A DNA stretch of 64,000 nucleotides from Flavobacteriaceae bacterium. GTDB lineage: Bacteria > Bacteroidota > Bacteroidia > Flavobacteriales > Flavobacteriaceae. The notes under the pieces were generated by a model, which saw nothing but the letters and a program-made list of their open reading frames with translations, was not told the DNA's origin and searched no databases. The stretch covers positions 1 to 64,000 of the forward strand of contig JAKITQ010000008.1 in NCBI GenBank assembly GCA_021647985.1, in the 5' to 3' direction. Of this stretch, positions 28,679 through 46,406 are shown piece by piece; within the stretch, counting starts at the first letter, position 1, and each line of letters begins with the position of its first letter. A program made the translations under genes and the position numbers.

Positions 28679-30124
28679 ATGAATAAAATACGAAACTATA
28701 TTAACGGAGAATTAGTATCTCCCCTTTCCAAGAAATACATGGATAATATCAATCCGACAACGGGGAAAGTTTATGCTTTAATTCCAGATTCAGATGCTTC
28801 TGATATTGACCTTGCAACTCAATCTGCTATTCAAGCAAAAAAGGAATGGGGCAATTCAAGTATCGAATATCGCTTTAAAATTCTAATGAAAATTGCTGAT
28901 TTAATTGAACGAGATATAGAAACATTGGCTTTGGCCGAAAGTATCGATAACGGAAAACCATTAACACTAGCAAGAAATATAGATATCCCTAGAGCAGTTA
29001 GTAATTTTCAGTTTTTTGCAACAGCTATCAAACACTTTGCTTCAAATGCACACGAACTAACTGGCGAAGCCATCAATTATACACTTAAAAAACCTATTGG
29101 CGTTGTTGCTTGTATATCTCCGTGGAATTTACCCCTATATTCTTTTACCTGGAAAATAGCTCCGGCACTTGCGGCTGGTAACTGTGTTATTGCCAAACCA
29201 TCTGAAATAACACCAATGACGGCTTATCTACTTTCTAAAATTTGTATGGAAGCAGGTTTGCCAAAAGGAGTTTTAAATATTGTTCACGGTTTGGGTTCTA
29301 AGGTTGGAAATGCAATTAGTGAACATATTGATATAAAAGCTATTTCATTTACTGGAGGTACAGAAACTGGAAGACAAATTGCAAAAACAGCAGCACCGAT
29401 GTTTAAAAAATTATCACTGGAATTGGGTGGTAAAAACCCGAATATAATTTTCGCCGATTGTAATTACGAGGCAATGTTGAAAACAACTTTAAAATCGTCT
29501 TTTGCCAATCAAGGTCAAATTTGTTTATGCGGATCAAGAATATTTATTGAGCGAACATTGTATAAGAAATTCAAAACAGATTTTGTTGAAAAAACCAAGG
29601 CTTTAATAGTTGGAGATCCATTAATGGAACAAACCGATATTGGCGCGATAGTTTCTAAACAACATCAGGATAAAATTATGTCGTATATTGAATTGGCTAA
29701 AAAAGAAGGAGGAAGAATTTTGTGTGGAGGTGAAAAAGTAAAACTTGATGGCGATAACGCTGAAGGGTTTTTTATAAGTCCGACTATCATTGAAGGCTTA
29801 AGTGCATCTTGTAGAACCAATCAGGAAGAAATATTCGGACCAGTAGTTACCATCATGCCATTTGATACAGAAGAGGAGGTATTAAATTATGCCAATAGCA
29901 CCGTTTATGGATTATCAGCTACACTTTGGACAGATAGTAATGCGAGAATTAATCGTTTTACTAATACATTGGAAGCTGGTATTATTTGGGTAAATTCATG
30001 GTTGCTTCGCGATTTGCGAACACCTTTCGGTGGAGTAAAAGATTCGGGAATTGGTAGAGAAGGAGGTTTTCATGCCTTGGAATTTTTTACGGAAACAAAG
30101 AATATTTGTATAAAATATGAATAA
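28679..30124 (+). CDS. 2-aminomuconate 6-semialdehyde dehydrogenase (ALDH family)
   Basis: This 481-residue NAD-dependent aldehyde dehydrogenase has SPWNLPLYSFTWKIAPALAAG, the catalytic Glu in LELGGKNP and the catalytic Cys in GQICLCGSR, and it keeps the C-terminal PFGGVKDSGIGREGG. By context it should oxidise 2-aminomuconate semialdehyde, the ACMSD product, to 2-aminomuconate. It overlaps the RidA-like gene by 8 bp, and ACMSD and HAO follow. By sequence alone it could be another semialdehyde dehydrogenase, but the neighbours make the assignment strong. Confidence 0.85.
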   Translation: MNKIRNYINGELVSPLSKKYMDNINPTTGKVYALIPDSDASDIDLATQSAIQAKKEWGNSSIEYRFKILMKIADLIERDIETLALAESIDNGKPLTLARNIDIPRAVSNFQFFATAIKHFASNAHELTGEAINYTLKKPIGVVACISPWNLPLYSFTWKIAPALAAGNCVIAKPSEITPMTAYLLSKICMEAGLPKGVLNIVHGLGSKVGNAISEHIDIKAISFTGGTETGRQIAKTAAPMFKKLSLELGGKNPNIIFADCNYEAMLKTTLKSSFANQGQICLCGSRIFIERTLYKKFKTDFVEKTKALIVGDPLMEQTDIGAIVSKQHQDKIMSYIELAKKEGGRILCGGEKVKLDGDNAEGFFISPTIIEGLSASCRTNQEEIFGPVVTIMPFDTEEEVLNYANSTVYGLSATLWTDSNARINRFTNTLEAGIIWVNSWLLRDLRTPFGGVKDSGIGREGGFHALEFFTETKNICIKYE

Positions 30125-30548
30125 ACATATGAACACAAAAAATAAATTTGAATCATCAAAAGCCCCAGAACCTGTGGGTTTATATCCTCACGCTCGTAAA
30201 GTTGGAAACTTGTTATTTTTATCGGGTGTTGGACCAAGAGAAAGAGGAAAAAAAGAGATTCCTGGTGTTACCTTAGATAAAAACAAGCACATTATTGCCT
30301 ATAATATTGAAAAACAGTGTCATGCAGTATTTAAAAACATTCGATATATTTTAGAAGATGCCGGTTCAAGTTGGGAAAACATTGTTGATGTTACCGTATT
30401 TTTAACCAATATAAAAGATGATTTTAAAACGTATAATAAAATTTATTCGCAATATTTTAAAGAAAATCAACCTTGTCGAACCACTGTTGAAATCAATTGT
30501 TTACCAACACCAATAGCTATTGAATTAAAAGTAATAGCTACCATTTAA
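30117..30548 (+). CDS. RidA-family 2-aminomuconate deaminase
   Basis: A 143-residue YjgF/YER057c/UK114 fold protein with the subtype start APEPVGLYPHARKVGNLLFLSGVGPRERG, split over its usual sites, and a C-terminal RTTVEINCLPTPIAIELKVIA. The substitution of the usual Q by GPRERG is typical of 2-aminomuconate deaminases (AmnD) and not of general RidA. It would hydrolyse 2-aminomuconate to 4-oxalocrotonate and ammonia. The start could be at 30117 or at the second ATG at 30129. Confidence 0.82.
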   Translation: MNKHMNTKNKFESSKAPEPVGLYPHARKVGNLLFLSGVGPRERGKKEIPGVTLDKNKHIIAYNIEKQCHAVFKNIRYILEDAGSSWENIVDVTVFLTNIKDDFKTYNKIYSQYFKENQPCRTTVEINCLPTPIAIELKVIATI

Positions 30549-30560
30549 ACCAAAAATATT

Positions 30561-31079
30561 ATGCCAAAATTAATTTCACCACCAATAAATTTTCTAAAAT
30601 GGATTGAAGAAAATAGAGACCAACTAAAACCACCTGTATGCAATAAAGTTGTTTGGGAAAATGGCGACTTTATTGTTATGGTTGTAGGAGGTCCAAACAA
30701 TAGAAAAGATTATCATTATAATGAAACGCCTGAATTTTTTTATATGATAGAAGGAGACATGATTTTAAAAGTAATTGAAGATGGTGTTTTTATTGATGTA
30801 CCAATTAAAGAAGGGGAAATTTATTTATTACCTCCAAAAGTACCACATTCTCCACAGCGTTTTGAAAACACAGTTGGTTTGGTAATAGAAACCAAAAGAG
30901 GTTCAGGTGTATTAGATGCATTGGAATGGTATTGTGAATCATGTGGTAATCCGTTATATCGTGAGGCATTCACTTTAGAAAATATCGTAACACAAATGCC
31001 TATTATTTTTGATAAGTATTACAATAATTTGGATTTAAGAACTTGTAATAAATGTAATACAATAATGGGTAAAATTTAA
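30561..31079 (+). CDS. 3-hydroxyanthranilate 3,4-dioxygenase
   Basis: This 172-residue cupin enzyme opens 3-hydroxyanthranilate to 2-amino-3-carboxymuconate semialdehyde. Iron ligands are seen in DYHYNETPEFFYMIEG (His, Glu) and in PPKVPHSPQRF (His). At the C-terminus a rubredoxin-like metal site is formed by WYCESCG and RTCNKCNT (four Cys), as in bacterial-type HAO. It is followed at 2 bp by ACMSD. Symbols used in other organisms are nbaC or haaO. Confidence 0.93.
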   Translation: MPKLISPPINFLKWIEENRDQLKPPVCNKVVWENGDFIVMVVGGPNNRKDYHYNETPEFFYMIEGDMILKVIEDGVFIDVPIKEGEIYLLPPKVPHSPQRFENTVGLVIETKRGSGVLDALEWYCESCGNPLYREAFTLENIVTQMPIIFDKYYNNLDLRTCNKCNTIMGKI

Positions 31080-31081
31080 TA

Positions 31082-32119
31082 ATGGCAGACTTGAATCACG
31101 ATAATAATTCTTTAAAAATTGATATCCATACGCATATCATGCCTGAAAAAATGCCCAATTTTGCTAAAAAATTTGGCTATGGAGGCTTTATTCATTTAGA
31201 TCATCACAAACCATGTTGTGCCAGAATGATGAAAGATGATGAATTTTTTAGAGAGGTAGAAGACAATTGCTGGAGTGCAGAGGCACGTCTTAAAGATTGC
31301 AAGCACTATCATGTAGATGTACAAGTTTTATCTACAATTCCGGTGCTTTTTAGTTATTGGGCCAAACCCAAAGATGCATTGGGTGTATCTATGTTTTTAA
31401 ATGATCATATAGCCGAAATCGTACAGCGTTATCCCAAACGGTTTATCGGTTTAGGAACCATTCCGATGCAAGTATCTGAATTGGCAATTAAAGAATTAGA
31501 AAGATGTAAAAAAATTGGATTAGTAGGTGTAGAAATTGGGTCGCATGTTAATGATTGGAATTTAGATAACGAGAATTTGTTTCCTATTTTTCAAGCGGCC
31601 GAAGCATTGGATATGGCAATTTTTGTTCATCCTTGGGATATGATGTCGAAAAACAAAATGGAAAAATATTGGTTGCCTTGGTTGGTGGGTATGCCGGCCG
31701 AATCTTCTTTGGCTATTTGCTCTTTAATTTTTGGTGGTGTTATGGAAAAGTTACCCAATTTGCGTTTTGCTTTCGCTCATGGCGGAGGATCTTTTCCGGC
31801 AACGATAGAAAGAATTGAGCACGGATTTAACGTTCGCCCCGACCTTTGTGCTGTTGACAATCCAGTAAGTCCGAAATCATATTTAGGTAAGTTTTGGGTT
31901 GATTCATTAACCCATGATCCAGCGATGTTAAAATACTTGGTGGATTTAATGGGTGAAGATAAGGTTGCTTTGGGTACCGATTATCCTTTCCCTCTAGGGG
32001 AATTAGCCCCGGGTAAACTTATTGAAAATATGGATGGTTTTTCGTTAAAAACCAAAGCGCAATTGTTAAGTGGTAGCGCATTATCGTGGTTAAACCTTAA
32101 AAAAGAACAATTTATATAA
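31082..32119 (+). CDS. 2-amino-3-carboxymuconate-6-semialdehyde decarboxylase (ACMSD)
   Basis: This 345-residue metal-dependent amidohydrolase-fold decarboxylase has the HxH motif in IDIHTHIMPEKMP, the metal His in FVHPWDMM, the AFAHGGGSFPATIERIEHG block with the general His and Arg, and the metal Asp in LGTDYPFPLGE. It removes the 3-carboxyl group from the HAO product, which directs carbon away from quinolinate and toward catabolism. The gene overlaps the next by one base. Confidence 0.93.
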   Translation: MADLNHDNNSLKIDIHTHIMPEKMPNFAKKFGYGGFIHLDHHKPCCARMMKDDEFFREVEDNCWSAEARLKDCKHYHVDVQVLSTIPVLFSYWAKPKDALGVSMFLNDHIAEIVQRYPKRFIGLGTIPMQVSELAIKELERCKKIGLVGVEIGSHVNDWNLDNENLFPIFQAAEALDMAIFVHPWDMMSKNKMEKYWLPWLVGMPAESSLAICSLIFGGVMEKLPNLRFAFAHGGGSFPATIERIEHGFNVRPDLCAVDNPVSPKSYLGKFWVDSLTHDPAMLKYLVDLMGEDKVALGTDYPFPLGELAPGKLIENMDGFSLKTKAQLLSGSALSWLNLKKEQFI

Positions 32120-32937
32120 TGCAATTAAACTTTAAAATTTCAAATAAAAATTACAGTATAAATACAGATAAGTATCATGATATTGCCATTGCTTTACAAT
32201 TTAATAAGGAGCAACCCAATACTTATAATGTTGAAAAAGCAACAAGCAAAGCTTATGCAATTGATAATTTTATAGGAGATACCAGAAGAGGTGGTGGTTG
32301 TAATTTTGAAGTATTAAAAATGATTCCACACTGTAATGGCACGCATACTGAATGTATTGGCCATATAACCAATCAAAGAATATCTATAAATGAGCAATTG
32401 AAAGATGTTTTTATACCTGCAACATTAATTAGTGTTACTCCTTTAATTGCTGATGATATGGAAGATGTATATCAACCAACTTTAGAAAAAAATGATAGGG
32501 TGATCAGTAAAAAAATATTGGAGGATGCTATAAAAAATTACAACAATCATTTTTTAAAAGCTTTAGTTATTAGAACATTGCCAAATGACAATAAGAAAAA
32601 ATCAAGAAATTATATGAAGCATGAAGCCCCATTTTTTTCTTTAGATGCCATGGAATATATTATTGCTTTAGGAGTAGATCATCTATTGGTAGATATGCCT
32701 TCGGTAGATAGGGCTTTTGATGATGGTGAATTAAACGTGCACCATATATTTTGGAACGTTAAAAAAGGAACGCACGAGATTGATGAAAGTTCAAATTTAT
32801 ATAAAACGATTACCGAAATGGTTTATGTTGAAGATGCAATTCAAGACGGAAATTATATGTTGAATTTACAAATTGCTTCATTTGTTTCGGATGCATCACC
32901 AAGCAGACCAATATTAATGGAAATTACTGAAATTTAA
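32119..32937 (+). CDS. Cyclase-family protein, probable kynurenine formamidase
   Basis: This 272-residue member of the PF04199 cyclase family has the metal-binding signature NGTHTECIGHI (the family's HxGTHxDxPxH in variant form) and a Glu/His-rich C-terminal half (DGELNVHHIFW). The family includes bacterial KynB, which cleaves formyl from N-formylkynurenine. Placed between ACMSD and kynureninase, it is the only formamidase candidate in the cluster. The motif starts with Cys rather than His, and it is longer than typical KynB (about 210), so the call is inferred from context. Confidence 0.72.
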   Translation: MQLNFKISNKNYSINTDKYHDIAIALQFNKEQPNTYNVEKATSKAYAIDNFIGDTRRGGGCNFEVLKMIPHCNGTHTECIGHITNQRISINEQLKDVFIPATLISVTPLIADDMEDVYQPTLEKNDRVISKKILEDAIKNYNNHFLKALVIRTLPNDNKKKSRNYMKHEAPFFSLDAMEYIIALGVDHLLVDMPSVDRAFDDGELNVHHIFWNVKKGTHEIDESSNLYKTITEMVYVEDAIQDGNYMLNLQIASFVSDASPSRPILMEITEI

Positions 32938-32940
32938 AAA

Positions 32941-34209
32941 ATGGATTACCAAAATAATTTAGCTTATGCAAAAAATTTAGATATAGAAGACCCACTGAGG
33001 TTGTACAGAGATAAATTTTATATTCCCAAACAAAAGAATGGTAAAGATCATATTTATTTATGTGGAAACTCTTTAGGATTGCAGCCTAGATCAACGAGAA
33101 AATATATAGAGCAAGAATTAAATGACTGGGAAAAATTAGGCGTAGAAGGTCATTTTGAAGCTAAAAATCCTTGGATGTCCTACCATGAAATTTTAACCGA
33201 TAAAATGTCGAAAATCGTTGGTGCAAAAGCCAATGAAGTGGTGGTGATGAATAGCCTTACGGTAAACTTGCATTTGATGATGGTTTCTTTTTATAGACCA
33301 AGTTCAAAAAGGTATAAAATTCTTATTGAGGGTAATGCATTTCCATCAGATCAGTATGCGGTGAAATCACAAATAGAATTTCATGGATATGATGTTGCTG
33401 ATGCTTTGATAGAATTAATTCCCCGAAAGGGAGAAAAAACCATGCGAATAGAAGATATTTTAAAATTAATAAAGGAAGAAGGAGATACGATCGTTTTAAT
33501 TATGATTGGTGGATTGAATTATTATACCGGACAGGCTTTTGATATGAAAGCTATAACAAAAGCAGGGCATGAAAAAGGTTGTTTTGTAGGTTTTGATTTG
33601 GCACACGGCGCAGGAAATTTACCCTTGCAATTACATGATTGGCAGGTAGATTTTGCAGTTTGGTGTACTTATAAATATTTAAATTCGGGTCCGGGTGGTG
33701 TAGCAGGGTGTTTTGTCCATGAAAATCATGTAAAAGATAGTACAATAAAGCGATTTACCGGTTGGTGGGGGCATGAAAAAGCCACTAGATTTTTAATGGA
33801 TGATACGTTTGTTCCTATTGAAAGTGCTGAAGGTTGGCAATTGAGCAACGCACCCATTTTGTCAATGGCAGCATTGCATGCTTCTTTAGATATTTTCGAG
33901 AAAGTTGGTATGAAAGCAATTCAAAATAAAGCTGAGAACCTGACTGGTTATTTAGAATATTTATTAATTGAACTTCAACACGATGCTATTGAAATAATCA
34001 CTCCAAAAAATGCAGCAGGTAGAGGTTCGCAGTTATCGATACAAGTAAAAAATAGTGATAAATCATTATTTAAAAAAATCACTAAAAAAGGTGTGATTGC
34101 AGACTGGAGAGAACCCGATGTTATACGAGTAGCACCAATTCCTTTGTACAATAGTTATGCAGATGTATTTTCTTTTGTAGCCATTTTAAAAGAATGCCTA
34201 AATCAATAA
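32941..34209 (+). CDS. kynU: Kynureninase
   Basis: This 422-residue PLP enzyme (fold type I) cleaves 3-hydroxykynurenine to 3-hydroxyanthranilate and alanine. Blocks include YLCGNSLGLQPRSTRKYI, GHFEAKNPWMSYHE, VGFDLAHGAGNLPLQLHDW, and the PLP lysine in VWCTYKYLNSGPGG, with a GWWGHEKATRF block. Length is typical. KMO starts 2 bp beyond its stop. Confidence 0.94.
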   Translation: MDYQNNLAYAKNLDIEDPLRLYRDKFYIPKQKNGKDHIYLCGNSLGLQPRSTRKYIEQELNDWEKLGVEGHFEAKNPWMSYHEILTDKMSKIVGAKANEVVVMNSLTVNLHLMMVSFYRPSSKRYKILIEGNAFPSDQYAVKSQIEFHGYDVADALIELIPRKGEKTMRIEDILKLIKEEGDTIVLIMIGGLNYYTGQAFDMKAITKAGHEKGCFVGFDLAHGAGNLPLQLHDWQVDFAVWCTYKYLNSGPGGVAGCFVHENHVKDSTIKRFTGWWGHEKATRFLMDDTFVPIESAEGWQLSNAPILSMAALHASLDIFEKVGMKAIQNKAENLTGYLEYLLIELQHDAIEIITPKNAAGRGSQLSIQVKNSDKSLFKKITKKGVIADWREPDVIRVAPIPLYNSYADVFSFVAILKECLNQ

Positions 34210-34211
34210 AG

Positions 34212-35555
34212 ATGAAAGAGAAAAAAGCAATCATTGTTGGAGCTGGTTTGGTTGGATCGTTATGGGCAATTTATTTATCGAAAGCTGGCTATACTGTTGA
34301 TATTTATGAGCTAAGAGATGATATTAGAAAGGTAGATATTTCGGCAGGTAAATCTATAAATTTGGCATTGTCTTATCGAGGATGGAAGGCCTTGGATAAT
34401 GTTGGAATAGGTGATGAGATCAGAAAAATTGCTTTGCCCATGTTTGGAAGAATAATGCACGATAAAAAAGGAGCAATAACCTACCAGGCTTATGGTAAAG
34501 AAGACCAAGCAATTTATTCTGTTTCTCGTGGTGATTTGAATGCGAAGATGATGGATTTGGCAGAATCATTCGAAAATACTTCAATTCATTATAATCACAA
34601 ATGTATAGATGCCAATTTGAATAAAGGAATCGTTTATTTTGAAAATACCAAAACGAAAAAAAGAATAGAGAGAAATGCAACTGTAGTTTTTGGAACGGAT
34701 GGTGCATTTTCGGCCATAAGAATAAAGGCCATGCAAAAAACCTATCGTTTTCAATATAGCCAGCATTATATTGAAGATGGTTATAGGGAAATATTATTAC
34801 CAGCAAATAAAGATGGTTCTTACAAATTAGATAAAAAAGCGTTGCATATTTGGCCAAGAGGCAGGTTTATGTTAATTGCCTTGCCAAATGAAGATGGCTC
34901 TTTTACCTGTACCTTATTTATGCCACATAAAAATAATAAGAACAGTTTTGAGAATTTAAAAACAAAAGATCAAATCAATGATTTTTTTAAAAATGAATTC
35001 CTTGATTTTTATAAAATGATACCAGAAATTGCTGAGATATGGGGTAATCACCCATTGTCGCCTTTGGCAATTATTAGGTGTTATCCTTGGGCAGTGGGTA
35101 AGGCGGTATTGATGGGAGATGCGGCACATGCTACGGTTCCGTTTTACGGACAGGGAATGAATAGTGGTTTTGAAGATTGCACTGTAATGGAGGAATTAAG
35201 AAAAAAATATAACGAGGATTGGGAGGCTATTTTTGATGTTTTCCAAAAGCAACAGAAGCCAAATGGTGATGCCATTCAAGATTTGTCATTACACAATTAC
35301 CATGTGATGCGTGATTTTGTTGGCGATACTAAATTTTTATTACAAAAAAAGATAGAAGCAGAATTCAGTAAAAAGCACCCTGATAAATGGTTGCCACTTT
35401 ACAGTCAGGTAAGTTTTAGTGATATTCCTTATGCAAAAGCCCTGCAAGTAGGTAAGCAACAAAATAAAATTATGAAAGAGGTGATGCAATTAGATAATAT
35501 TGAAACTATTTGGGATAGTGAAGAAGTAACAGCATATATATTAAAGAGATTGTGA
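34212..35555 (+). CDS. kmo: Kynurenine 3-monooxygenase
   Basis: The frame includes an earlier ATG at 34194, inside kynU, but the ATG at 34212 gives MKEKKAIIVGAGLVG, so it is preferred (447 residues). FAD binding is shown by IVGAGLVGSLWAIYL with the later GDAAHATVPFYGQGMNSGFEDC motif. The Arg-rich SRGDLNAKMMDLAE and the C-terminal region fit KMO of flavobacteria and animals. It hydroxylates kynurenine with NADPH and O2. It is last in the gene run, ended by a strong hairpin. Confidence 0.93.
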   Translation: MKEKKAIIVGAGLVGSLWAIYLSKAGYTVDIYELRDDIRKVDISAGKSINLALSYRGWKALDNVGIGDEIRKIALPMFGRIMHDKKGAITYQAYGKEDQAIYSVSRGDLNAKMMDLAESFENTSIHYNHKCIDANLNKGIVYFENTKTKKRIERNATVVFGTDGAFSAIRIKAMQKTYRFQYSQHYIEDGYREILLPANKDGSYKLDKKALHIWPRGRFMLIALPNEDGSFTCTLFMPHKNNKNSFENLKTKDQINDFFKNEFLDFYKMIPEIAEIWGNHPLSPLAIIRCYPWAVGKAVLMGDAAHATVPFYGQGMNSGFEDCTVMEELRKKYNEDWEAIFDVFQKQQKPNGDAIQDLSLHNYHVMRDFVGDTKFLLQKKIEAEFSKKHPDKWLPLYSQVSFSDIPYAKALQVGKQQNKIMKEVMQLDNIETIWDSEEVTAYILKRL

Positions 35556-38774: not shown

Positions 38775-39209
38775 TTATTTTAAAAAGATAAATGATTTAC
38801 CTTCTTTTGTATCTTTAGCAAACTCGCCAATAGTTCTTTCTGTTAATTCACGCAATAAAGAATCTCTACAGGGTGCTGCAACATGGTGAATGGCACAAGG
38901 GTTTTCGTCACTACATTTAGGTAAGCCAATAAAACAGGAACTAAAAGAATCTAATCCATCAATACATTGTATGATATTTAAAATATTTTTTGATTGCTCT
39001 TTTTTTCCTAAATAGAAACCTCCATTAGGCCCTTTTACCGATAAGATTATTTTTTCTTTACTAAGGGTTTGAAATATTTTTGCCAAAAATGGAGCAGGTA
39101 CCTCTATGATATTAGCAACAGTTTTTGAGCTTAATTTATTGTCTATACTGGATTTTACTGCAAGGTAGAGAACCGCTCTAATTGCATATTTACTTTGATT
39201 ACTTAACAT
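38775..39209 (-). CDS. Rrf2-family regulator, Fe-S type (NsrR-like)
   Basis: This 144-residue winged-helix regulator (MLSNQSKYAIRAVLYLAV, then VPAPFLAKIFQTL recognition helix) has cysteines at 92, 99 and 105, close to the three cluster ligands of NsrR-type proteins, plus Cys82 and Cys114. It probably binds an Fe-S cluster and senses NO or redox state. It is divergent from the fasciclin-cytochrome c-nosZ genes with 119 bp between, so it is the obvious local regulator. A minus-strand TATATTTG box (39221 to 39214) sits just before its ATG. Confidence 0.87.
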   Translation of the reverse strand: MLSNQSKYAIRAVLYLAVKSSIDNKLSSKTVANIIEVPAPFLAKIFQTLSKEKIILSVKGPNGGFYLGKKEQSKNILNIIQCIDGLDSFSSCFIGLPKCSDENPCAIHHVAAPCRDSLLRELTERTIGEFAKDTKEGKSFIFLK

Positions 39210-39213
39210 AAAG

Positions 39214-39221
39214 CAAATATA
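39214..39221 (-). promoter_or_regulatory. Candidate -7 box of the Rrf2 gene
   Basis: On the minus strand it reads TATATTTG, a perfect TAnnTTTG match, ending 4 bp before the ATG at 39209. Transcription from it would be nearly leaderless. It is placed symmetrically to the plus-strand box around the CRP/FNR-like operator. Confidence 0.4.
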
Positions 39222-39241
39222 AAAGATATTTTTATCCTTTA

Positions 39242-39257
39242 TGTGATAAAAATCATG
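39242..39257. promoter_or_regulatory. CRP/FNR-type operator TGAT-N4-ATCA between rrf2 and nos genes
   Basis: TGTGATAAAAATCATG is an inverted repeat with the FNR/CRP half sites TGAT and ATCA 4 bp apart (39244-39255). Its centre (39249.5) lies about 42 bp upstream of the start expected from the plus-strand -7 box at 39279-39286, which is the class II activator position. It is similarly far from the minus-strand box. CRP/FNR-family control of N2O reductase genes is known in other bacteria; here it is an inference. Confidence 0.55.
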
Positions 39258-39278
39258 TTTTTGATTAGCAAGGTAGCT

Positions 39279-39286
39279 TAATTTTG
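39279..39286 (+). promoter_or_regulatory. -7 box (TAATTTTG) of the nos gene cluster
   Basis: TAATTTTG matches TAnnTTTG exactly. A TTG at 39261-39263 is 15 bp upstream, slightly short for a -33 element, which fits a promoter that needs an activator. The fasciclin ATG is 43 bp downstream. Confidence 0.5.
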
Positions 39287-39328
39287 TGTAAATTTAATTT
39301 TTAATAATCTAACTTAAATACAATAATT

Positions 39329-39910
39329 ATGAAAAGTAAAATTTTTGCAATAGCAGTCGTATTTTCTTTCGTTTTTTATTCTTGCAATACTGATAAAAAA
39401 CAAGATGCTGTTAAAAGTGAGACAAAACAAGAGCAGAGTGTATCTGCGAATACAGGGCAAGCTTCTGTTAAGGATGATGGTGTTTCGGATGCAAATGCAC
39501 TACAGGTAGCAAAATCTATAGAAGATTTTTCAACATTAGTTGTAGCCATTGAGGCAGCTGGAGTTCAAAATTCAGTTGTAAACACTGGTCCGTTAACAAT
39601 TTTCGCACCTTTAAATAGTGCTTTTGCCAAATTGCCAGAAGGTACTGTTGAAACCTTATTAAAACCTGAAAACAAAAAGGATTTATCTTTTATTTTAGTA
39701 AACCATGTTGCTCCAGCAAACTATCCTATTAAACAATTAAAAAAAGAGGCTAAAAAAGGAAGAAAACTTTATATGGCTTCAGGTAAATATTTGGTTGTAG
39801 AGAATAAAGATGGAGAAATCTATGTTGGTGGTACCAAAATATTAAAAACCGTAAAAGTAAGTAACGGATGGATACACGTAATTGACGATGTATTGGTTCC
39901 TGCTGAATAA
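39329..39910 (+). CDS. Fasciclin-domain lipoprotein in the nos cluster
   Basis: This 193-residue protein has a signal peptide ending YSC (Cys about residue 19), a low-complexity linker and one FAS1 domain: DFSTLVVAIEAAGV, TIFAPLNSAFAKLP, ILVNHV and WIHVIDDVLVP. FAS1 domains mediate adhesion or binding. It is the first gene behind the nos promoter and is followed at 28 bp by the cytochrome c gene, so co-expression with N2O reductase is likely. How it helps is unknown; a scaffold or electron-carrier partner is possible. Confidence 0.85.
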   Translation: MKSKIFAIAVVFSFVFYSCNTDKKQDAVKSETKQEQSVSANTGQASVKDDGVSDANALQVAKSIEDFSTLVVAIEAAGVQNSVVNTGPLTIFAPLNSAFAKLPEGTVETLLKPENKKDLSFILVNHVAPANYPIKQLKKEAKKGRKLYMASGKYLVVENKDGEIYVGGTKILKTVKVSNGWIHVIDDVLVPAE

Positions 39911-39938
39911 TAATTAATAATAATAAATCTAACTAAAA

Positions 39939-40403
39939 ATGAAATTAAAAATTTTAACTGTCTTGGCACTAAGTGCTATCATGATGAGTTGTGGAGGTGA
40001 TAAACCAAAAGAAAAAGCTGCTGATTCGCCGGCAAAAGAGGATATGAAAGCTGAAGTCACTAAAATTGACCCTATGAAAGACAAAGGTGTAGGTCCAATA
40101 AAATCTGTAACTATAGGTGACATTGATGATGCAATGGTAGCAAATGGAGAAAAAATATTTAAGGCAAAATGTACGGCTTGTCATAAAATTAGTAAAAGGT
40201 TTGTAGGCCCAGCTTTAAAAGGTATTACTAAAAAACAAACACCAGAGTGGATTATGAATATGATATTAAATCCTGATGTAATGGTAGTTGAAAATGCCAG
40301 GGCTAAAGAGTTATTAATAGAATATAGTGCTCCTATGGCAAATCAAAATCTAACCGAAGAAGAAGCCAGAGCAATTTATGAATATTTCAGAACAAAAAAT
40401 TAA
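39939..40403 (+). CDS. c-type cytochrome lipoprotein (class I)
   Basis: This 154-residue protein has a lipoprotein signal (MMSC, Cys18), a charged linker and a single heme-c domain. The heme motif is CTACH (Cys78, Cys81, His82), and the sixth ligand is probably the Met in APMANQNLTEEE. It lies directly upstream of nosZ, 28 bp, so it is the probable electron donor to N2O reductase. Its size and the RFVGPALKGI block fit the small monoheme cytochromes of the class I fold. Confidence 0.9.
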   Translation: MKLKILTVLALSAIMMSCGGDKPKEKAADSPAKEDMKAEVTKIDPMKDKGVGPIKSVTIGDIDDAMVANGEKIFKAKCTACHKISKRFVGPALKGITKKQTPEWIMNMILNPDVMVVENARAKELLIEYSAPMANQNLTEEEARAIYEYFRTKN

Positions 40404-40431: not shown

Positions 40432-42414
40432 ATGAAAAAAATGATTAAATCTTTTATCGCAATACTTTCCTTATCCGTTGTAATGGTAAGTTGTGGCGAT
40501 TTAAATAATGGAAATTCAAAAAAGCAAGGTGCTTTATCTGGTAATGCGGCGGAAAAAGTATATGTTGCTCCAGGTGAACATGATGAGTTTTATGCTTTTT
40601 TATCTGGTGGATTTAGTGGGCAATTAGCTGTTTACGGTTTGCCATCAGGTAGATTGTTTAAGGTGATTCCAGTTTTTTCTGTAGATGCTGAAAAAGCTTA
40701 TGGATTTAATGAAGAAACCAAACCCATGTTAAATACTTCTCATGGATTTATTCCGTGGGATGATTCACATCACCCTGATATTTCTCAAACCAATGGAGAA
40801 ATAGATGGAAGATATATTTATATCAATGGAAACAATACTCCTAGAATTGCTAAGATTGATTTAACAACTTTTGAAACAACAGAAATTATTGAAATTCCTA
40901 ACTCAGCAGGAAATCACAGTTCATCTTATGTAACAGACAATACGGAGTATGTTGTTGCTGGAACAAGATTTGGTGTACCTGTGCCACAAAGGGATATATC
41001 TATTGACGATTATAAAGGAAATTTCAAAGGAACTTTATCATTTTTGAAAGTTGATCCGAAAGATGGAGGAATGAGTTTAAAATTTCAAATTTTAATGCCT
41101 GGATTTGATTATGATAAAGCACATCCAGGAAGAGGTAAATCACATGGATGGTTTTTCTTTACTACCTATAATACTGAAGAAGCAAATTCACTTTTAGAGG
41201 TTAACGCATCGCAAAACGATAAAGACTTTATTGCCGCGATTAACTGGAAAAAAATTGAAGAATATGTAAATAATGGAGGTGGTAAAAAAATGGCAACGAA
41301 TTATGCACATAACGTTTATAGTGATGAGACACATTCTGCAACTTCAACGATGATAAAAGAAGTTCTTATGGTAGATCCGAGTGAAGTACCGGGCGCAATA
41401 TTTTTTCTGCCAACACCTAAATCTCCTCACGGGTGTGATGTTGATCCTTCTGGTGAATATATAGTTGGAAGTGGTAAATTATCTGCTGATGTAACGATAC
41501 ATTCTTTTACTAAAATGTTAAATGCCATTGAAAATAAATTATATGATGGAGAGGCGTATGGAATTCCTATTTTAAAATATGAAGAAGTTAACGCAGGAAG
41601 CGTAAAACAAGCTGGTTTAGGCCCTTTACATACGGAGTTTGATGGGCAAGGAAACGCTTATACTACTTTCTTTATTTCCTCTGAAGTTGTAAAATGGAAA
41701 TTAGGAACCTGGGAAGTTATAGATAGAAAGCCAACATATTATTCTGTTGGTCACTTAATGATTCCTGGAGGTAATTCAAGAAAACCATATGGTAAATATT
41801 TATTGGCTATGAATAAAATAACTAAAGATCGTTATTTACCAACTGGGCCAGAGGTAACGCAGTCAGCTCAGTTATATGATATTACAGGTGAAAAAATGGA
41901 ACTTTTATTAGATTTTCCTACAGTTGGTGAGCCACATTATGCAGCAGGAATTCCTGCCGATATTATAGCAAAAAACTCTCGTAAAATATATAAATTAGAA
42001 GAAAATAAACATCCTTATGTTGCCAAAACCGAAGCGGAATCTAAAGTAGTTAGAAAAGGTAATGAAGTGCATATTTATTTGACGATGATACGATCTCACT
42101 TTGCACCAGATAATATTGAAGGAGTTCAAGTGGGTGATAAAGTATACTTTCATGTAACTAATTTAGAACAAGATTATGATGTGCCACATGGTATTGCAAT
42201 GATTGGAGCACAAACTTCTGAGTTATTGATCATGCCAGGACAAACAGAAACATTTATATGGTACCCAAAACAAGTTGGAGTTTGGCCATTCTATTGTACA
42301 GATTTCTGTTCGGCTTTACATCAAGAAATGCAAGGTTATGTTAGGGTATCACCAAAAGGATCAAGTGTGCCAATTAAATTTACTTTGGATGGAGATGCAG
42401 TTGATGCCGAATAA
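40432..42414 (+). CDS. nosZ: Nitrous oxide reductase NosZ (clade II, probable lipoprotein)
   Basis: This 660-residue copper enzyme reduces N2O to N2. The N-terminus is a Sec-type signal with a possible lipobox (VMVSC, Cys21) and not a twin-arginine signal, as expected for clade II. The beta-propeller holds CuZ ligands, for example DSHHP (His113, His114). The C-terminal cupredoxin domain has the CuA site CTDFCSALHQEM (Cys622, Cys626, His630, Met633) and an upstream His in YDVPHGIAMIG. The length is full. It is followed by a strong terminator, so nosL-nosY may have their own promoter or arise by read-through. Confidence 0.95.
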   Translation: MKKMIKSFIAILSLSVVMVSCGDLNNGNSKKQGALSGNAAEKVYVAPGEHDEFYAFLSGGFSGQLAVYGLPSGRLFKVIPVFSVDAEKAYGFNEETKPMLNTSHGFIPWDDSHHPDISQTNGEIDGRYIYINGNNTPRIAKIDLTTFETTEIIEIPNSAGNHSSSYVTDNTEYVVAGTRFGVPVPQRDISIDDYKGNFKGTLSFLKVDPKDGGMSLKFQILMPGFDYDKAHPGRGKSHGWFFFTTYNTEEANSLLEVNASQNDKDFIAAINWKKIEEYVNNGGGKKMATNYAHNVYSDETHSATSTMIKEVLMVDPSEVPGAIFFLPTPKSPHGCDVDPSGEYIVGSGKLSADVTIHSFTKMLNAIENKLYDGEAYGIPILKYEEVNAGSVKQAGLGPLHTEFDGQGNAYTTFFISSEVVKWKLGTWEVIDRKPTYYSVGHLMIPGGNSRKPYGKYLLAMNKITKDRYLPTGPEVTQSAQLYDITGEKMELLLDFPTVGEPHYAAGIPADIIAKNSRKIYKLEENKHPYVAKTEAESKVVRKGNEVHIYLTMIRSHFAPDNIEGVQVGDKVYFHVTNLEQDYDVPHGIAMIGAQTSELLIMPGQTETFIWYPKQVGVWPFYCTDFCSALHQEMQGYVRVSPKGSSVPIKFTLDGDAVDAE

Positions 42415-42576: not shown

Positions 42577-43167
42577 ATGAAAAAATCTAAAATATTAATG
42601 ATAATAGGCTCCTTGTTGCTACTGGGTTTGTTTGTTTTTCCATTATGGAATATTACATTAGAAGCACCGCAATATCCTATTCCTTTGGGTATGGATATTC
42701 ATATTAATAAATTTACTGACACCCATGAATTTGATATTAAAAATATTAATTTGATGAATCATTATGTTGGTATGAAATATATACCAGAAACCATTCCTGA
42801 ATTTAAAATTTTTCCAATTGTTATTGGGGTAATGGTTTTTTTAGGTGTCATAATTGGATTTGTTGGGAAACATAAATGGTTTTTATATTGGTTTATACTG
42901 ATGTCAATTTTAGGAATTGCCGGAATGTATGATTTTTATCTTTGGGAGTATGATTATGGTCATAATTTAGATCCAAAGGCCATCATGAAATTCACCAACC
43001 CTGATGGCTCAATTATGGGATTTCAACCCCCTTTATTTGGTACCAAACACATTCTTAATTTTACAGCACACTCTTATCCAAGAGCGGGAGCATATTTTAT
43101 GTTTACTGGAATGATGTTAACTTTTATTTCCTTTTTTGTAGGGAAGAAAGAAATTAAAAACACATAA
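42577..43167 (+). CDS. Four-helix membrane protein of the nos cluster
   Basis: This 196-residue protein has predicted membrane segments near residues 7-27, 80-98, 101-120 and 170-190. It has a periplasmic loop rich in aromatic, Met and His residues (LMNHYVGMKYIPETIPEFK, and GTKHILNFTAHSYPRAG). I do not recognise a named family; membrane proteins of this kind occur next to clade II nosZ, where one is called nosB. The His/Met-rich loops would fit copper or quinol interaction, but this is inference. Confidence 0.6.
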   Translation: MKKSKILMIIGSLLLLGLFVFPLWNITLEAPQYPIPLGMDIHINKFTDTHEFDIKNINLMNHYVGMKYIPETIPEFKIFPIVIGVMVFLGVIIGFVGKHKWFLYWFILMSILGIAGMYDFYLWEYDYGHNLDPKAIMKFTNPDGSIMGFQPPLFGTKHILNFTAHSYPRAGAYFMFTGMMLTFISFFVGKKEIKNT

Positions 43168-43256: not shown

Positions 43257-43697
43257 ATGAAAAATCATTATTTAGCAGTATTTGGTGTAATCTTATTGTT
43301 ATCTATTTCCTGTAAAGTTGAGCCTGAAAAAATTAATTTTGGTCAAGAAGCCTGTCATTTTTGTAAAATGACTATTGTTGATCAGCAACATGCTTCACAG
43401 TATATAACAAAAAAAGGGAAGCAATATAAATTTGATTCTATTGAATGTATGCTAAATAGTTTAGATGATATTACTACTGAGAATATCTCTGTCTTTTTGG
43501 TTTCAGACTATGGAAACCCAGGAAATATGACAGATGTTATCACTGCAACGTATTTGATTAGTGAAGAAATTAAAAGCCCGATGGGTGCTTTTTTATCAGC
43601 TTTTTCGAGTGACTCTTTGGCAAACGAAACCTTACAAAAAAGTGGGGGTAAACTCTATACCTGGTCAACCATAAAAGAAAAATATCATGTTGAATAA
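43257..43697 (+). CDS. nosL: NosL copper chaperone lipoprotein
   Basis: This 146-residue lipoprotein (SISC, Cys about residue 19) has the copper-binding motif ACHFCKMTIVD, followed by KFDSIECMLNSL and the C-terminal SPMGAFLSAFSS, the NosL core. It delivers Cu(I) for the CuZ centre of NosZ. It overlaps nosD by 11 bp, so translation is probably coupled. Confidence 0.9.
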   Translation: MKNHYLAVFGVILLLSISCKVEPEKINFGQEACHFCKMTIVDQQHASQYITKKGKQYKFDSIECMLNSLDDITTENISVFLVSDYGNPGNMTDVITATYLISEEIKSPMGAFLSAFSSDSLANETLQKSGGKLYTWSTIKEKYHVE

Positions 43698-44937
43698 AAT
43701 AAAAAATAGTTTATTTATTTTATTAACAATATTATTTAGTACAATTCAAGCAAAACAAATTGAAGTATGTTCAACTTGCGAGATAAAAACTATTAATGAG
43801 GCAATTCAATTTGCTTTGGATGGTGATGAAATAATTGTTAAATCAGGTATTTACAAAGAACACAACCTTGTTATTAATAAATCTATAAAAATTATTGGTA
43901 TAGATAATCCAATTGTGGATGGGGAAAACAAGGAAACTATTTTTAAATTTAGTGCTAATAATTTTTCTATTGAAGGCTTCACGATAATAAATGTGGGGCA
44001 GAGCTACACCAAAGATTTTGCAGCCATATTAGTTTCTAAGTCAAATCATTTCACCATAAAGAACAACAAATTTGAAAACGTATTTTTTGGATTGCTTATT
44101 GAAAAATCAAAATTCGGAATTATTGATAATAATAATATTAGCAGTAAAGCAATAAATCAAGCGAGTTCTGGAAATGGTATTCATATTTGGCATTGCTCTA
44201 ATATGCAAGTAAGTAATAATGACTTACACGGTTTAAGAGATGGAATTTATTTCGAATTCGTTAAAAAAAGCAAAATTTATAATAATAATAGTTACAATAA
44301 TTTGCGTTACGGATTACATTTTATGTTTTCAAACGAAAATGAATATTATAACAATGTCTTTTCAAAAAATGGCGCCGGTGTTGCCGTTATGTTTTCTAAA
44401 TATATTAAAATGCACCACAATAAGTTTTCAGAAAACTGGGGTTCAGCTTCATATGGATTATTACTTAAGGAAATTTATGACGCCGAAATCGAGAATAATA
44501 TTTTTGAACAAAATACTATTGGGATTAGCGTTGACGGCTCTACCCGAATGAATTATAAAAAAAATACTTTCTTGCGCAATGGTTGGGCTGTTAAAATTGT
44601 TGGTGCCTGTTATGAAAATAACTTTTCGCAAAACAATTTTATGCACAATGCATTGGATCTTTCTTACAATAGTAAGATCAATTCAAATAAATTTGATAAT
44701 AATTATTGGAGTGATTATTCTGGTTATGATCTGGATAAAAACGGTGTAGGAGATGTACCTTATCGTCCCGTAAAATTATTTTCGTATATAGTACATAATA
44801 CACCAGAAACCATTATTTTATTACGAAGTTTATTTGTAGATATTATCAATTTTTCTGAAAAAGTATCTCCGATATTTACCCCAGATAATTTGGTGGATAA
44901 TAACCCATTAATGAAACAAATCAATGATACAAATTAA
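43687..44937 (+). CDS. nosD: NosD periplasmic maturation protein
   Basis: This 416-residue protein has a signal peptide (ending about IQAKQ) and a right-handed parallel beta-helix of the NosD/CASH type. The repeats carry Asn ladders (NNKFENVFFGLLIEKSK, then NNDLHGLRDGIYFEF and so on). The end YWSDYSGYDLDKNGVGDVPYRP is characteristic of NosD. It works with NosF and NosY in supplying sulfur or copper to the CuZ site. It overlaps nosL and nosF. Confidence 0.92.
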   Translation: MLNKIKNSLFILLTILFSTIQAKQIEVCSTCEIKTINEAIQFALDGDEIIVKSGIYKEHNLVINKSIKIIGIDNPIVDGENKETIFKFSANNFSIEGFTIINVGQSYTKDFAAILVSKSNHFTIKNNKFENVFFGLLIEKSKFGIIDNNNISSKAINQASSGNGIHIWHCSNMQVSNNDLHGLRDGIYFEFVKKSKIYNNNSYNNLRYGLHFMFSNENEYYNNVFSKNGAGVAVMFSKYIKMHHNKFSENWGSASYGLLLKEIYDAEIENNIFEQNTIGISVDGSTRMNYKKNTFLRNGWAVKIVGACYENNFSQNNFMHNALDLSYNSKINSNKFDNNYWSDYSGYDLDKNGVGDVPYRPVKLFSYIVHNTPETIILLRSLFVDIINFSEKVSPIFTPDNLVDNNPLMKQINDTN

Positions 44938-45631
44938 TAATTTAAATAAAAAATTTGGCAAATTAACTGTTCTTGAAGGATTGGATTTAGAAATTAATTC
45001 AGGAGGAATATTTGCTATTTTAGGTCCAAACGGATCTGGTAAAACAACCTTGATTAAAAGTATTTTAGGTATGGTAATTCCCAATTCTGGTGATATAAAA
45101 TTAAATGGTAAAACTATATTAAAAGAATGGGAATATCGAAATCAAATTAATTACTTGCCCCAAATAGCTAATTTTCCCAGTAATTTATCTGTTAATGAAT
45201 TGATTGGGATGGTTAAAAATTTAAGACCAAAAAAAGCCAATGAAGTTGAGCTGATTTCACTTTTTGGTTTGGAGCAATTTTTGGATAAAAAACTGGGTAA
45301 CTTATCAGGCGGTACAAAACAAAAAGTAAATATCGTTTTAACTTTTATGTTTGATAGTGAACTAATTATTTTAGATGAACCCACTACAGGTTTGGATCCT
45401 ATTTCATTAATTCATTTAAAAGACATTATCCAAAAAGAAAAAGAAAAAGGAAAAACCCTTTTAATTACTACACATATCATGAGTTTGGTAGAAGAAATTG
45501 CAGATGAAATAGTATTCTTATTAGATGGTGAGATATATTTTAAAGGAAGTGTTATCGAATTAAAAAAGAGAACAGGGCAGACTGATATAGAACATGCTAT
45601 TGCTAATTTAATGACCAAAGAAAATGTTTAA
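44924..45631 (+). CDS. nosF: NosF ABC-transporter ATPase
   Basis: This 235-residue ATP-binding cassette has Walker A GPNGSGKTT, the signature NLSGGTKQKVN and Walker B LIILDEPTTGLD. It pairs with NosY in the inner membrane and energises the maturation of NosZ with NosD. It overlaps nosD by 14 bp and nosY by 8 bp. Confidence 0.93.
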   Translation: MIQINNLNKKFGKLTVLEGLDLEINSGGIFAILGPNGSGKTTLIKSILGMVIPNSGDIKLNGKTILKEWEYRNQINYLPQIANFPSNLSVNELIGMVKNLRPKKANEVELISLFGLEQFLDKKLGNLSGGTKQKVNIVLTFMFDSELIILDEPTTGLDPISLIHLKDIIQKEKEKGKTLLITTHIMSLVEEIADEIVFLLDGEIYFKGSVIELKKRTGQTDIEHAIANLMTKENV

Positions 45632-46406
45632 AATTTTAAAATATAGTTTTTACGATTTAATGCGTAGCCGATGGAGTTATGTATACTTTGCCTTTTATCT
45701 GGCTTTGGGTTTTGTATTGTTATTTTTAAATAATGATATGAATAAAGCGGTTATCACATTATTGAATATTATTATTGTTTTAACACCATTAATAGGAACT
45801 GTTTTTGGCGTAATGTATTATTATAATTCAAAAGAATTTACCGAGCTTTTATTGGCACAACCTATAAAAAGAAGCACCATTTTTATGGGGCAATATTTGG
45901 GAATATCCATTTCTTTGACTTTGAGTTTAGTACTCGGCTTGGGAATCCCCTTTTTGCTTTATGGCCTGTTTAGATCAACAGCAATATTCGACTTTGGCTT
46001 GTTATTGGTAGTGGGGTCTTTTTTGAATTTTATTTTTGTTGCTTTGGCGTTTAATATTGCGTTATCTAATGAAAATAAGATAAAGGGTTTTGGTTATGCA
46101 ATTTTATTGTGGTTATTTTTAGCCGTGATTTATGATGGTGCATTTTTAATCATTTTGGTTATGTTTAATGAATATCCATTAGATAAGTTTTCTTTATTTG
46201 CAACCATGTTTAACCCCATTGATTTATCTCGAATATTAATTTTGTTAAAACTAGATATTTCTGCACTTTTGGGCTATACCGGAGCTGTGTTTAAAAAATT
46301 CTTCGGTACAAATTCGGGTATGATTATATCGTTTGTTGTTATGACTTTATGGATTATTTTACCGGTTTGGAGAATTAACAAAAAGTTAAGAAAAAAAGAT
46401 TTTTAG
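45624..46406 (+). CDS. nosY: NosY ABC-transporter permease
   Basis: This 260-residue membrane protein has six predicted helices. The block YYNSKEFTELLLAQPIKRSTIFMGQYLG is the cytosolic coupling region of ABC-2 permeases of the NosY type. It is the last gene of the nosLDFY run, with 8 bp overlap with nosF. Together they form the NosDFY complex. Confidence 0.9.
   Translation: MFKILKYSFYDLMRSRWSYVYFAFYLALGFVLLFLNNDMNKAVITLLNIIIVLTPLIGTVFGVMYYYNSKEFTELLLAQPIKRSTIFMGQYLGISISLTLSLVLGLGIPFLLYGLFRSTAIFDFGLLLVVGSFLNFIFVALAFNIALSNENKIKGFGYAILLWLFLAVIYDGAFLIILVMFNEYPLDKFSLFATMFNPIDLSRILILLKLDISALLGYTGAVFKKFFGTNSGMIISFVVMTLWIILPVWRINKKLRKKDF

Follow-up and report, generated by a model that had tools for sequence, protein, structure and literature searches.

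Gene content of the rrf2-nos locus

The window, by which we mean the whole stretch of 64,000 nucleotides analyzed here, belongs to a flavobacterial genome that is 86.6% complete and is divided into 80 contigs. It contains a nos operon on the plus strand and, divergent from it, a single rrf2 gene on the minus strand, and the two are separated by a gap at positions 39210 to 39328 (Table 1). Among the best 80 public NosZ loci, the majority of the closest are titled Flavobacteriaceae or genera of that family. The 196-residue protein encoded within the operon gave zero family matches against Pfam and NCBIfam. The first two genes of the operon (39329 to 40403) run from fasciclin to cytochrome in the window as well as in Lutibacter and Lutimonas, and are found in the reverse order elsewhere, for example in Maribacter, Ulvibacterium and Aquimarina. 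Upstream of the nos region, positions 28679 to 35555 hold genes for a kynureninase and a 3-hydroxyanthranilate 3,4-dioxygenase (both models over their cut-offs) and for an aldehyde dehydrogenase, a set that probably serves kynurenine catabolism.

Table 1. Coordinates of genes and of control elements, observed or predicted, at the rrf2-nos locus
Feature	Position	Strand	Basis or remark
rrf2, Rrf2-family regulator, Cys92/Cys99/Cys105/His108	38775..39209	-	profile matches, alignment
-7 box TATATTTG of rrf2	39214..39221	-	centre 39217.5; predicted start 39209
Dyad D1 AAAGATATTTTTATCCTT (AAAGATA-N4-TATCCTT)	39222..39239	.	putative operator of Rrf2, centred at 39230.5; near -60.5 relative to nos and -21.5 relative to rrf2
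FNR-type palindrome TGTGATAAAAATCATG	39242..39257	.	core TGAT-N4-ATCA 39244-39255, centre 39249.5; predicted -41.5 for nos
-7 box TAATTTTG of nos promoter	39279..39286	+	centre 39282.5; predicted transcription start 39291
Fasciclin-domain protein, nos operon gene 1	39329..39910	+	
c-type cytochrome	39939..40403	+	
nosZ, Sec-dependent (clade II) nitrous-oxide reductase	40432..42414	+	TIGR04246, 930 bits, cut-off 625
Protein of 196 residues, nos operon member	42577..43167	+	hydrophobic stretches by eye
nosL	43257..43697	+	
nosD	43687..44937	+	
nosF-type ABC ATPase	44924..45631	+	named by position
nosY-type permease	45624..46406	+	named by position; weak profile match, below cut-off

An FNR-type palindrome is conserved at a fixed distance from the nos promoter

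An earlier note on this DNA had described a CRP/FNR-like palindrome in the gap, with a promoter box centred 33 bp away on the nos side and another 32 bp away on the rrf2 side. The positions of all three elements proved exact. As to its type, the palindrome is FNR-like by sequence (TGAT-N4-ATCA) and not CRP-like; the CRP reading (TGTGA-N6-TCACA) was dropped because relatives carry ATGAT/ATCAT. The exact 16-mer occurs once in the window, and allowing up to three mismatches gave 4 matches there against 2.98 expected. Since the number of mismatched copies does not exceed chance, the single copy proves little, and it is conservation that carries the case.

To the best 80 NosZ loci retained from a contig scan we added the window, and from these 81 loci we removed three that lay on contigs without the promoter (L002, L018 and L048), leaving 78 nos regions. 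The palindrome, which the note had proposed to seek in the nos promoters of relatives, was indeed present there: the core TGAY-N4-RTCA occurs in 65 of the 78 regions (1.12 expected from dinucleotide shuffles) and the strict form ATGAY-N4-RTCAT in 58 (0.2 expected). Regions scored as negative include loci in which the first gene is probably not the start of the operon (for example L024, L029, L032, L052, L060 and L079). For a second count we took the 65 loci that deviate from the strict form by no more than one mismatch. Of these 65 good-palindrome loci, 64 are in the core set too, and 56 survived thinning at 75% identity. The nos loci share kinship, and their counts are not independent events.

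When every box in the 65 good-palindrome loci was counted, TAnnTTTG lay at exactly 33.0 bp from the palindrome centre in 61 of them, and all other offsets within 100 bp downstream together accounted for five boxes. Picking in each locus the box closest to 33 bp would bias the count, so the offsets quoted here were obtained without such a choice. The mean information per position is 1.24 bits in the palindrome and 1.27 bits in the box, against 0.25 bits in the spacer between them, indicating that both elements are kept while their surroundings drift. In Flavobacterium psychrophilum, the -7 box is described as covering -12 to -5 (PMC9723704). At a spacing of 33.0 bp, the palindrome centre is therefore predicted to lie at -41.5, a class II position, and the nos transcript to begin at the site listed in Table 1. 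Thus, a class II FNR-type site for nos is supported, with the start position itself a prediction. The same arrangement recurs at other genes of relatives, where the FNR core is 33.0 bp from the box in 11 of 12 box offsets at norC and in 15 of 18 at nirK.

The class II position had been claimed for both promoters. It holds for nos, whereas on the rrf2 side a box at 32 to 34 bp was found in only 14 of 38 divergent loci; in 12 it lay only elsewhere (19 to 66 bp), and in 12 it was absent. The 32-bp spacing is real in the window but, judged from these loci, is not conserved among divergent relatives. The idea of a symmetric region giving class II control of both genes was dropped, because the rrf2-side offsets scatter and because the core promoter of rrf2 is occupied by another element, described below. 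The rrf2 box of the window would make the A of the rrf2 ATG the first transcribed base and thereby predict a leaderless message, a kind that makes up 5.5% of the mapped F. psychrophilum messages (PMC9723704). A box centre 8 nt ahead of the rrf2 ATG is also seen in the two best-matching relatives (L131 and L132).

A second dyad lies behind the palindrome in phase with the DNA helix

The nos promoters share a further conserved element, absent from the earlier note. This inverted repeat, RAGAY-N6-RTCYT, is here called D1; in the window its centre lies 19 bp from that of the palindrome, behind it as seen from nos. Its strict form, ARGAY-N6-RTCYT, was present in 51 of the 78 nos regions (0.42 expected) and lay behind the palindrome in 48 of the 49 nos loci that have both. 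Without any picking among sites, 39 strict copies were spaced 18 to 21 bp from the palindrome, nine were spaced 27 to 29 bp, and two were downstream, one in L042, a locus with a questionable palindrome, and one in L076, as an extra copy over the box. When one mismatch was allowed, the spacing was 18 to 21 bp in 53 of 62 loci and 27 to 29 bp in 9 of 62, a count biased by the resolution of ties among equal matches toward 20 bp. The two spacing classes are about one helical turn apart, which suggests that the proteins on the FNR site and on D1 sit on the same face of the DNA. Relative to nos, D1 is predicted at about -60 or -70.

Of the 78 loci, 39 have rrf2 and nos in divergent orientation (37 plus L026 and L031). 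Among the 39 loci that lack a divergent rrf2, 22 carry RRGAY-N6-RTCYY behind the palindrome; the nearest upstream reading frame (at least 80 codons) is oriented in the same way as nos in 10 of the 22. Because D1 is kept at nos where rrf2 is elsewhere, it cannot serve rrf2 alone. We searched the genomes of 31 of the 39 non-divergent loci for an Rrf2 protein: exact RRGAY-N6-RTCYY accompanied an Rrf2 match (E < 1e-20) in 20 of 28 genomes and occurred in one of the three genomes without such a match, numbers that lean in the expected direction but are too small to count. In L064, about 3.4 kb separate rrf2 from the first nos gene downstream of it, and the region upstream of rrf2 carries D1 and an FNR core 54 bp apart. 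The order of D1 and FNR core in L064, L065 and L067 fits a gene on the opposite strand, and a further D1-like dyad lies near the rrf2 start.

Two other explanations of D1 were set aside. A second FNR box was dropped, since D1 separates its half-sites by 2 bp more than an FNR site does, and a chance dyad was dropped, since D1 occurs far above shuffles at nos, rrf2, norC, ric and nirK.

D1 precedes genes for nitric oxide metabolism

Across the genome that contains the window, AAAGAY-N6-RTCYTT gave 9 + 7 matches on the two strands, against 9 + 11 for the reversed pattern. As the count does not rise above this control, only the placement of the sites is telling. There are nine distinct sites, of which three fall in reading frames, one (on C80) in a 128-codon open stretch, and five in intergenic regions; these five precede nos/rrf2, norCB, nirK, ric and hemA. 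NirK (TIGR02376), RIC (TIGR03652) and the products of hemA and hemH were all named by models over cut-off, and norB was named because its best matches are solved NO reductases (3o0r, E 6.6e-113).

We then counted D1 in relatives, using a 149-genome family sample and the best loci, at most 30, for each gene, with a search span of 250 bp upstream of rrf2, norC and ric and of 300 bp upstream of nirK. Strict D1 was found ahead of rrf2 in 17 of 30 loci (0.12 expected), ahead of norC in 21 of 30 (0.14 expected; the 30 include three weak cytochrome matches), ahead of ric in 10 of 29 (0.13 expected) and ahead of nirK in 17 of 30 (0.12 expected), an enrichment of 77- to 150-fold over shuffles. It is absent from the remaining promoters, namely, 9 of 30 for norC, 13 of 30 for nirK and 19 of 29 for ric.

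The rrf2 gene itself also keeps company with these targets. For the 31 genomes without a nos-divergent rrf2, 29 loci were read; the best rrf2 match is a neighbor of norC in 8 of them and lies no more than about 1 kb from ric in 7, and in one locus of the family sample (L145) rrf2 lies beside nirK. In 11 rrf2-norC pairs, D1 (exact in 10, with one mismatch in one) and an FNR core are located between the two genes; ahead of rrf2 itself, these pairs carry no strict D1 and four one-mismatch forms.

At norC and nirK the two sites are arranged in another way than at nos. All 19 D1-FNR pairs at norC have D1 49 to 63 bp downstream of the FNR centre, and 12 of 15 pairs at nirK have it 51 to 59 bp downstream, which would put it just past the predicted start, in the place of a roadblock. 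The remaining three nirK pairs have D1 at +21, at +86 and, as at nos, 19 bp behind FNR (L276). The occurrence of both arrangements at nirK is a weak argument that D1 acts with the same sign in each.

Candidate regulators for the two sites

Three proteins of this genome match HTH_Crp_2 over its cut-off. The best candidate for binding the palindrome, judged from its residues and its neighbors, is encoded on C19 next to cbb3-oxidase genes, a fused ccoNO, and combines a cyclic-nucleotide-like domain with a Crp-type helix-turn-helix. It scored 97 bits against the NCBIfam Fnr model, below the cut-off of 228, yet this was its best-scoring model. We aligned it with the best 30 orthologues from an 80-genome sample, which gave 31 rows in which the protein of this genome is counted twice. 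C5, C8, C54 and C107 are invariant in 31 of 31 rows. C5, C8 and C107 align with three members of the Escherichia coli set C20-C23-C29-C122, with C107 in the C122 column; the C29 column holds Asn in this genome's protein and Cys in none of the 31 rows, and C54 is an invariant extra cysteine. A gene for a heavy-metal P-type ATPase, ccoI-like but under the specific model cut-offs, adjoins fnr in 29 of 30 orthologue loci. Of the Glu, Arg and Ser212 that we take to be the DNA-recognition residues of E. coli FNR, the recognition helix keeps Glu and Arg and has Ile in the place of Ser212, a change that may accompany the use of ATGAT in place of TTGAT. Intergenic sites of the FNR pattern also precede oxidoreductase genes, and the interval between ccoNO and the P-type ATPase gene contains another, as expected of an anaerobic regulator. 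A second Crp-family paralogue (C53:16955-17515) appears to be a pseudogene, being interrupted by two in-frame stops. The third HTH_Crp_2 protein adjoins genes that we take to encode sulfur transporters.

The rrf2 product belongs to the Rrf2 superfamily (PF02082, 88.7 bits, cut-off 30; TIGR00738, 90.8 bits, cut-off 73.3) and is the only such protein over the family cut-off in this genome. Against the NCBIfam models it scored 44 bits for NsrR (cut-off 182) and 51 bits for IscR (cut-off 207.55), below the threshold in both cases. Its C92, C99, C105 and H108 are kept in 104 of 105 Rrf2 rows and align with C92, C98, C104 and H107 of E. coli IscR, which we take to be the IscR cluster ligands; IscR is also its best solved-structure match by sequence. 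In NsrR, Asp8 is described as the fourth cluster ligand (PMC5411485). In the corresponding column, the Rrf2 protein of the window has Lys, as do 36 of the 37 nos-divergent rows. In our tree, E. coli NsrR sits on a very long branch and its placement is unsure, and IscR is likewise unplaced, few columns being available. The earlier note had called the protein NsrR-like. This agrees with its presumed targets but not with the protein itself, which scores below the NsrR cut-off and has cluster ligands of the IscR type, and the lack of Asp8 together with IscR-type ligands means that the signal could be cluster status instead of NO.

The simplest reading of D1 is that it is an Rrf2 operator, and most likely that of the divergently encoded Rrf2. 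Since several relatives' genomes carry at least two Rrf2 paralogues, the protein that binds D1 may vary by species.

A two-operator model for the control of nos

Comparison of related genomes establishes both sites, their spacing and the target genes they have in common. On this basis, we consider it probable, with some reserve, that the gap between rrf2 and nos is a promoter with two operators, at which FNR activates at low oxygen and Rrf2 restrains expression until NO appears; we infer the pairing of each protein with its site, the NO signal and the negative action of Rrf2 at nos. The two-input logic that the earlier note had suggested gains support from an Rrf2-linked dyad at nos and at the promoters of NO genes. 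At low oxygen, an iron-sulfur FNR would bind the palindrome at -41.5 and activate nos as a class II activator, and it would likewise activate norC and nirK. The divergently encoded Rrf2 would bind D1, where it would cover the rrf2 core promoter and repress its own gene, and just past the norCB and nirK promoters it would act as a roadblock. In a class II complex, the alpha-CTD of RNA polymerase binds behind the activator. At nos, D1 lies near this expected position, behind the centre of the FNR site by about two or three turns of the helix, and Rrf2 bound there could block FNR-driven activation, that is, act by anti-activation. NO, generated by the nirK product or arriving from outside, would then damage the Rrf2 cluster, and departure of Rrf2 from the DNA would free rrf2 itself together with nir, nor, nos and ric, the gene for cluster repair.

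An activator at -60 or -70 would fit the spacing of D1 equally well. Rrf2 might accordingly help FNR to recruit polymerase as a co-activator of nos, in which case NO or cluster loss would lower nos while nor and nir are derepressed. The nearly invariant place of strict D1 behind the palindrome (48 of 49 loci), with the helical phase kept, is activator-like, the Rrf2 cluster ligands are those of IscR, and IscR is reportedly an Rrf2-family protein that activates. What makes a co-activator rather unlikely is that the same dyad mostly occupies roadblock places 49 to 63 bp past the FNR centre (19 of 19 pairs at norC and 12 of 15 at nirK), that the nos-like nirK promoter of L276 suggests that a move of D1 from one place to the other leaves the sign unchanged, and that shutting off nos upon NO would be odd for a denitrifier. 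It is very improbable, in turn, that D1 at nos merely mediates autorepression of rrf2, leaving nos to FNR alone. The window D1 does lie across the rrf2 core promoter (-21.5) and the genes are divergent in half of the loci (39 of 78), but D1 stays in 22 of the 39 non-divergent loci, with the upstream frame codirectional with nos in 10 of them, which is why we disfavor this explanation.

Doubts about the identity of the proteins apply to both sites. D1 might be bound by a regulator other than Rrf2, given that strict D1 is missing from 13 of 30 rrf2 promoters in the family sample and from 19 of 29 in the genomes without a nos-divergent rrf2, and that several Rrf2 paralogues occur together in some genomes. 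We regard this as improbable, because D1 is nevertheless found ahead of rrf2 in 17 of 30 loci (0.12 expected) and in 10 of 29, because this genome has a single Rrf2 over the cut-off, and because the wider spacing of the D1 half-sites excludes a second FNR box. The palindrome, for its part, could be read by an NO-sensing Crp/Fnr protein of the DNR, NnrR or HcpR type in place of an oxygen-sensing FNR. The genome is incomplete (86.6%) and such a paralogue could be missing from it, and DNR of other bacteria is described as using an FNR-like box, CTTGATnnnnATCAAG (PMC1274295). Against this, of the three HTH_Crp_2 proteins one has conserved cysteines and lies by ccoNO and one is a broken frame, and sites of the FNR pattern are also found at oxidoreductase genes and between ccoNO and the ATPase gene. 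The third protein lies near genes that seem to encode sulfur transporters. We therefore consider an NO-sensing protein at the palindrome unlikely.

Taken one step further, the two-operator model with FNR and Rrf2 would mean that flavobacteria possess an Rrf2 system of their own, with IscR-type ligands and an operator of 16 to 18 bp, which represses nirK and norCB from a site past the promoter and steers nos from behind FNR as a phased anti-activator (or co-activator). For this broader proposal, drawn from sequence comparison, we see the chances as evenly balanced. If it is true, N2O reduction is wired to NO differently from N2O production inside one regulon.

Relation to known regulatory systems

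In the environment, clade II N2O reducers belonging to the Bacteroidota act as a sink for N2O, and little seems known of how they switch on nos. The present analysis supplies defined sites, a candidate pair of regulators and a small regulon. The same pair of FNR site and D1 recurs ahead of other denitrification genes in relatives, and the difference in D1 geometry between nos and nor/nir bears on the timing of N2O uptake against release.

The closest parallel is in Neisseria, where FNR and NsrR control aniA and norB, the genes for nitrite and NO reductases (PMC3032703, PMC1274295). As described there, the likeness comprises divergent denitrification genes under FNR and an NO-sensitive repressor of the Rrf2 family, and a regulon of nirK, norB and dnrN/ric (PMC3032703, PMC1274295). 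Here, by contrast, nos is among the targets, the dyad reads RAGAY-N6-RTCYT and not gATGyAT-N5-ATrCATc, the Rrf2 protein has IscR-type ligands and the nos dyad lies behind FNR. The NsrR regulons reported for Proteobacteria, Bacillus and Streptomyces share with our system the Rrf2 family and, provided that D1 is the operator of the Rrf2 protein here, targets that include nirK, norB and dnrN/ytfE (PMC1274295); D1 precedes the NO genes nirK, norCB and ric. The linked dyad, RAGAY-N6-RTCYT, differs from the NsrR operator gATGyAT-N5-ATrCATc given in that source (PMC1274295), and the protein differs in its score of 44 bits against the 182 cut-off and in Lys for Asp8; the place of E. coli NsrR in the tree is unsure. 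IscR resembles it in the Cys3His ligands and as the best solved-structure match by sequence, and differs in the score (51 bits, cut-off 207.55) and in that the presumed regulon here consists of nitrogen-oxide genes. The class II promoters of E. coli FNR and of DNR are similar in the TGAT-N4-ATCA core, the predicted -41.5 position and three of the four cluster cysteines; here the outer base is A (ATGAT) and not T (TTGAT), Ile replaces Ser, and the -7 box is of the Bacteroidota type.

Nitrosophilus labii belongs to a phylum other than Bacteroidota. Its Crp/Fnr regulators have been tied to clade II nosZ, a link drawn there from expression correlation, with Rrf2 absent from the abstract (PMC11539149). 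In metagenomes, clade II nos clusters are reported to be enriched in Rrf2 genes, whose role was called hard to predict and for which that account defines no site (PMC6264515). In the portions consulted of open-licence papers on Rrf2/NsrR or FNR with nos, Bacteroidetes or flavobacteria, we found no description of this operator or regulon.

The D1 regulon may extend to heme synthesis. A strict D1 lies between hemA and hemH (C77:21807; L109:1501-1518), 106 bp from hemA.
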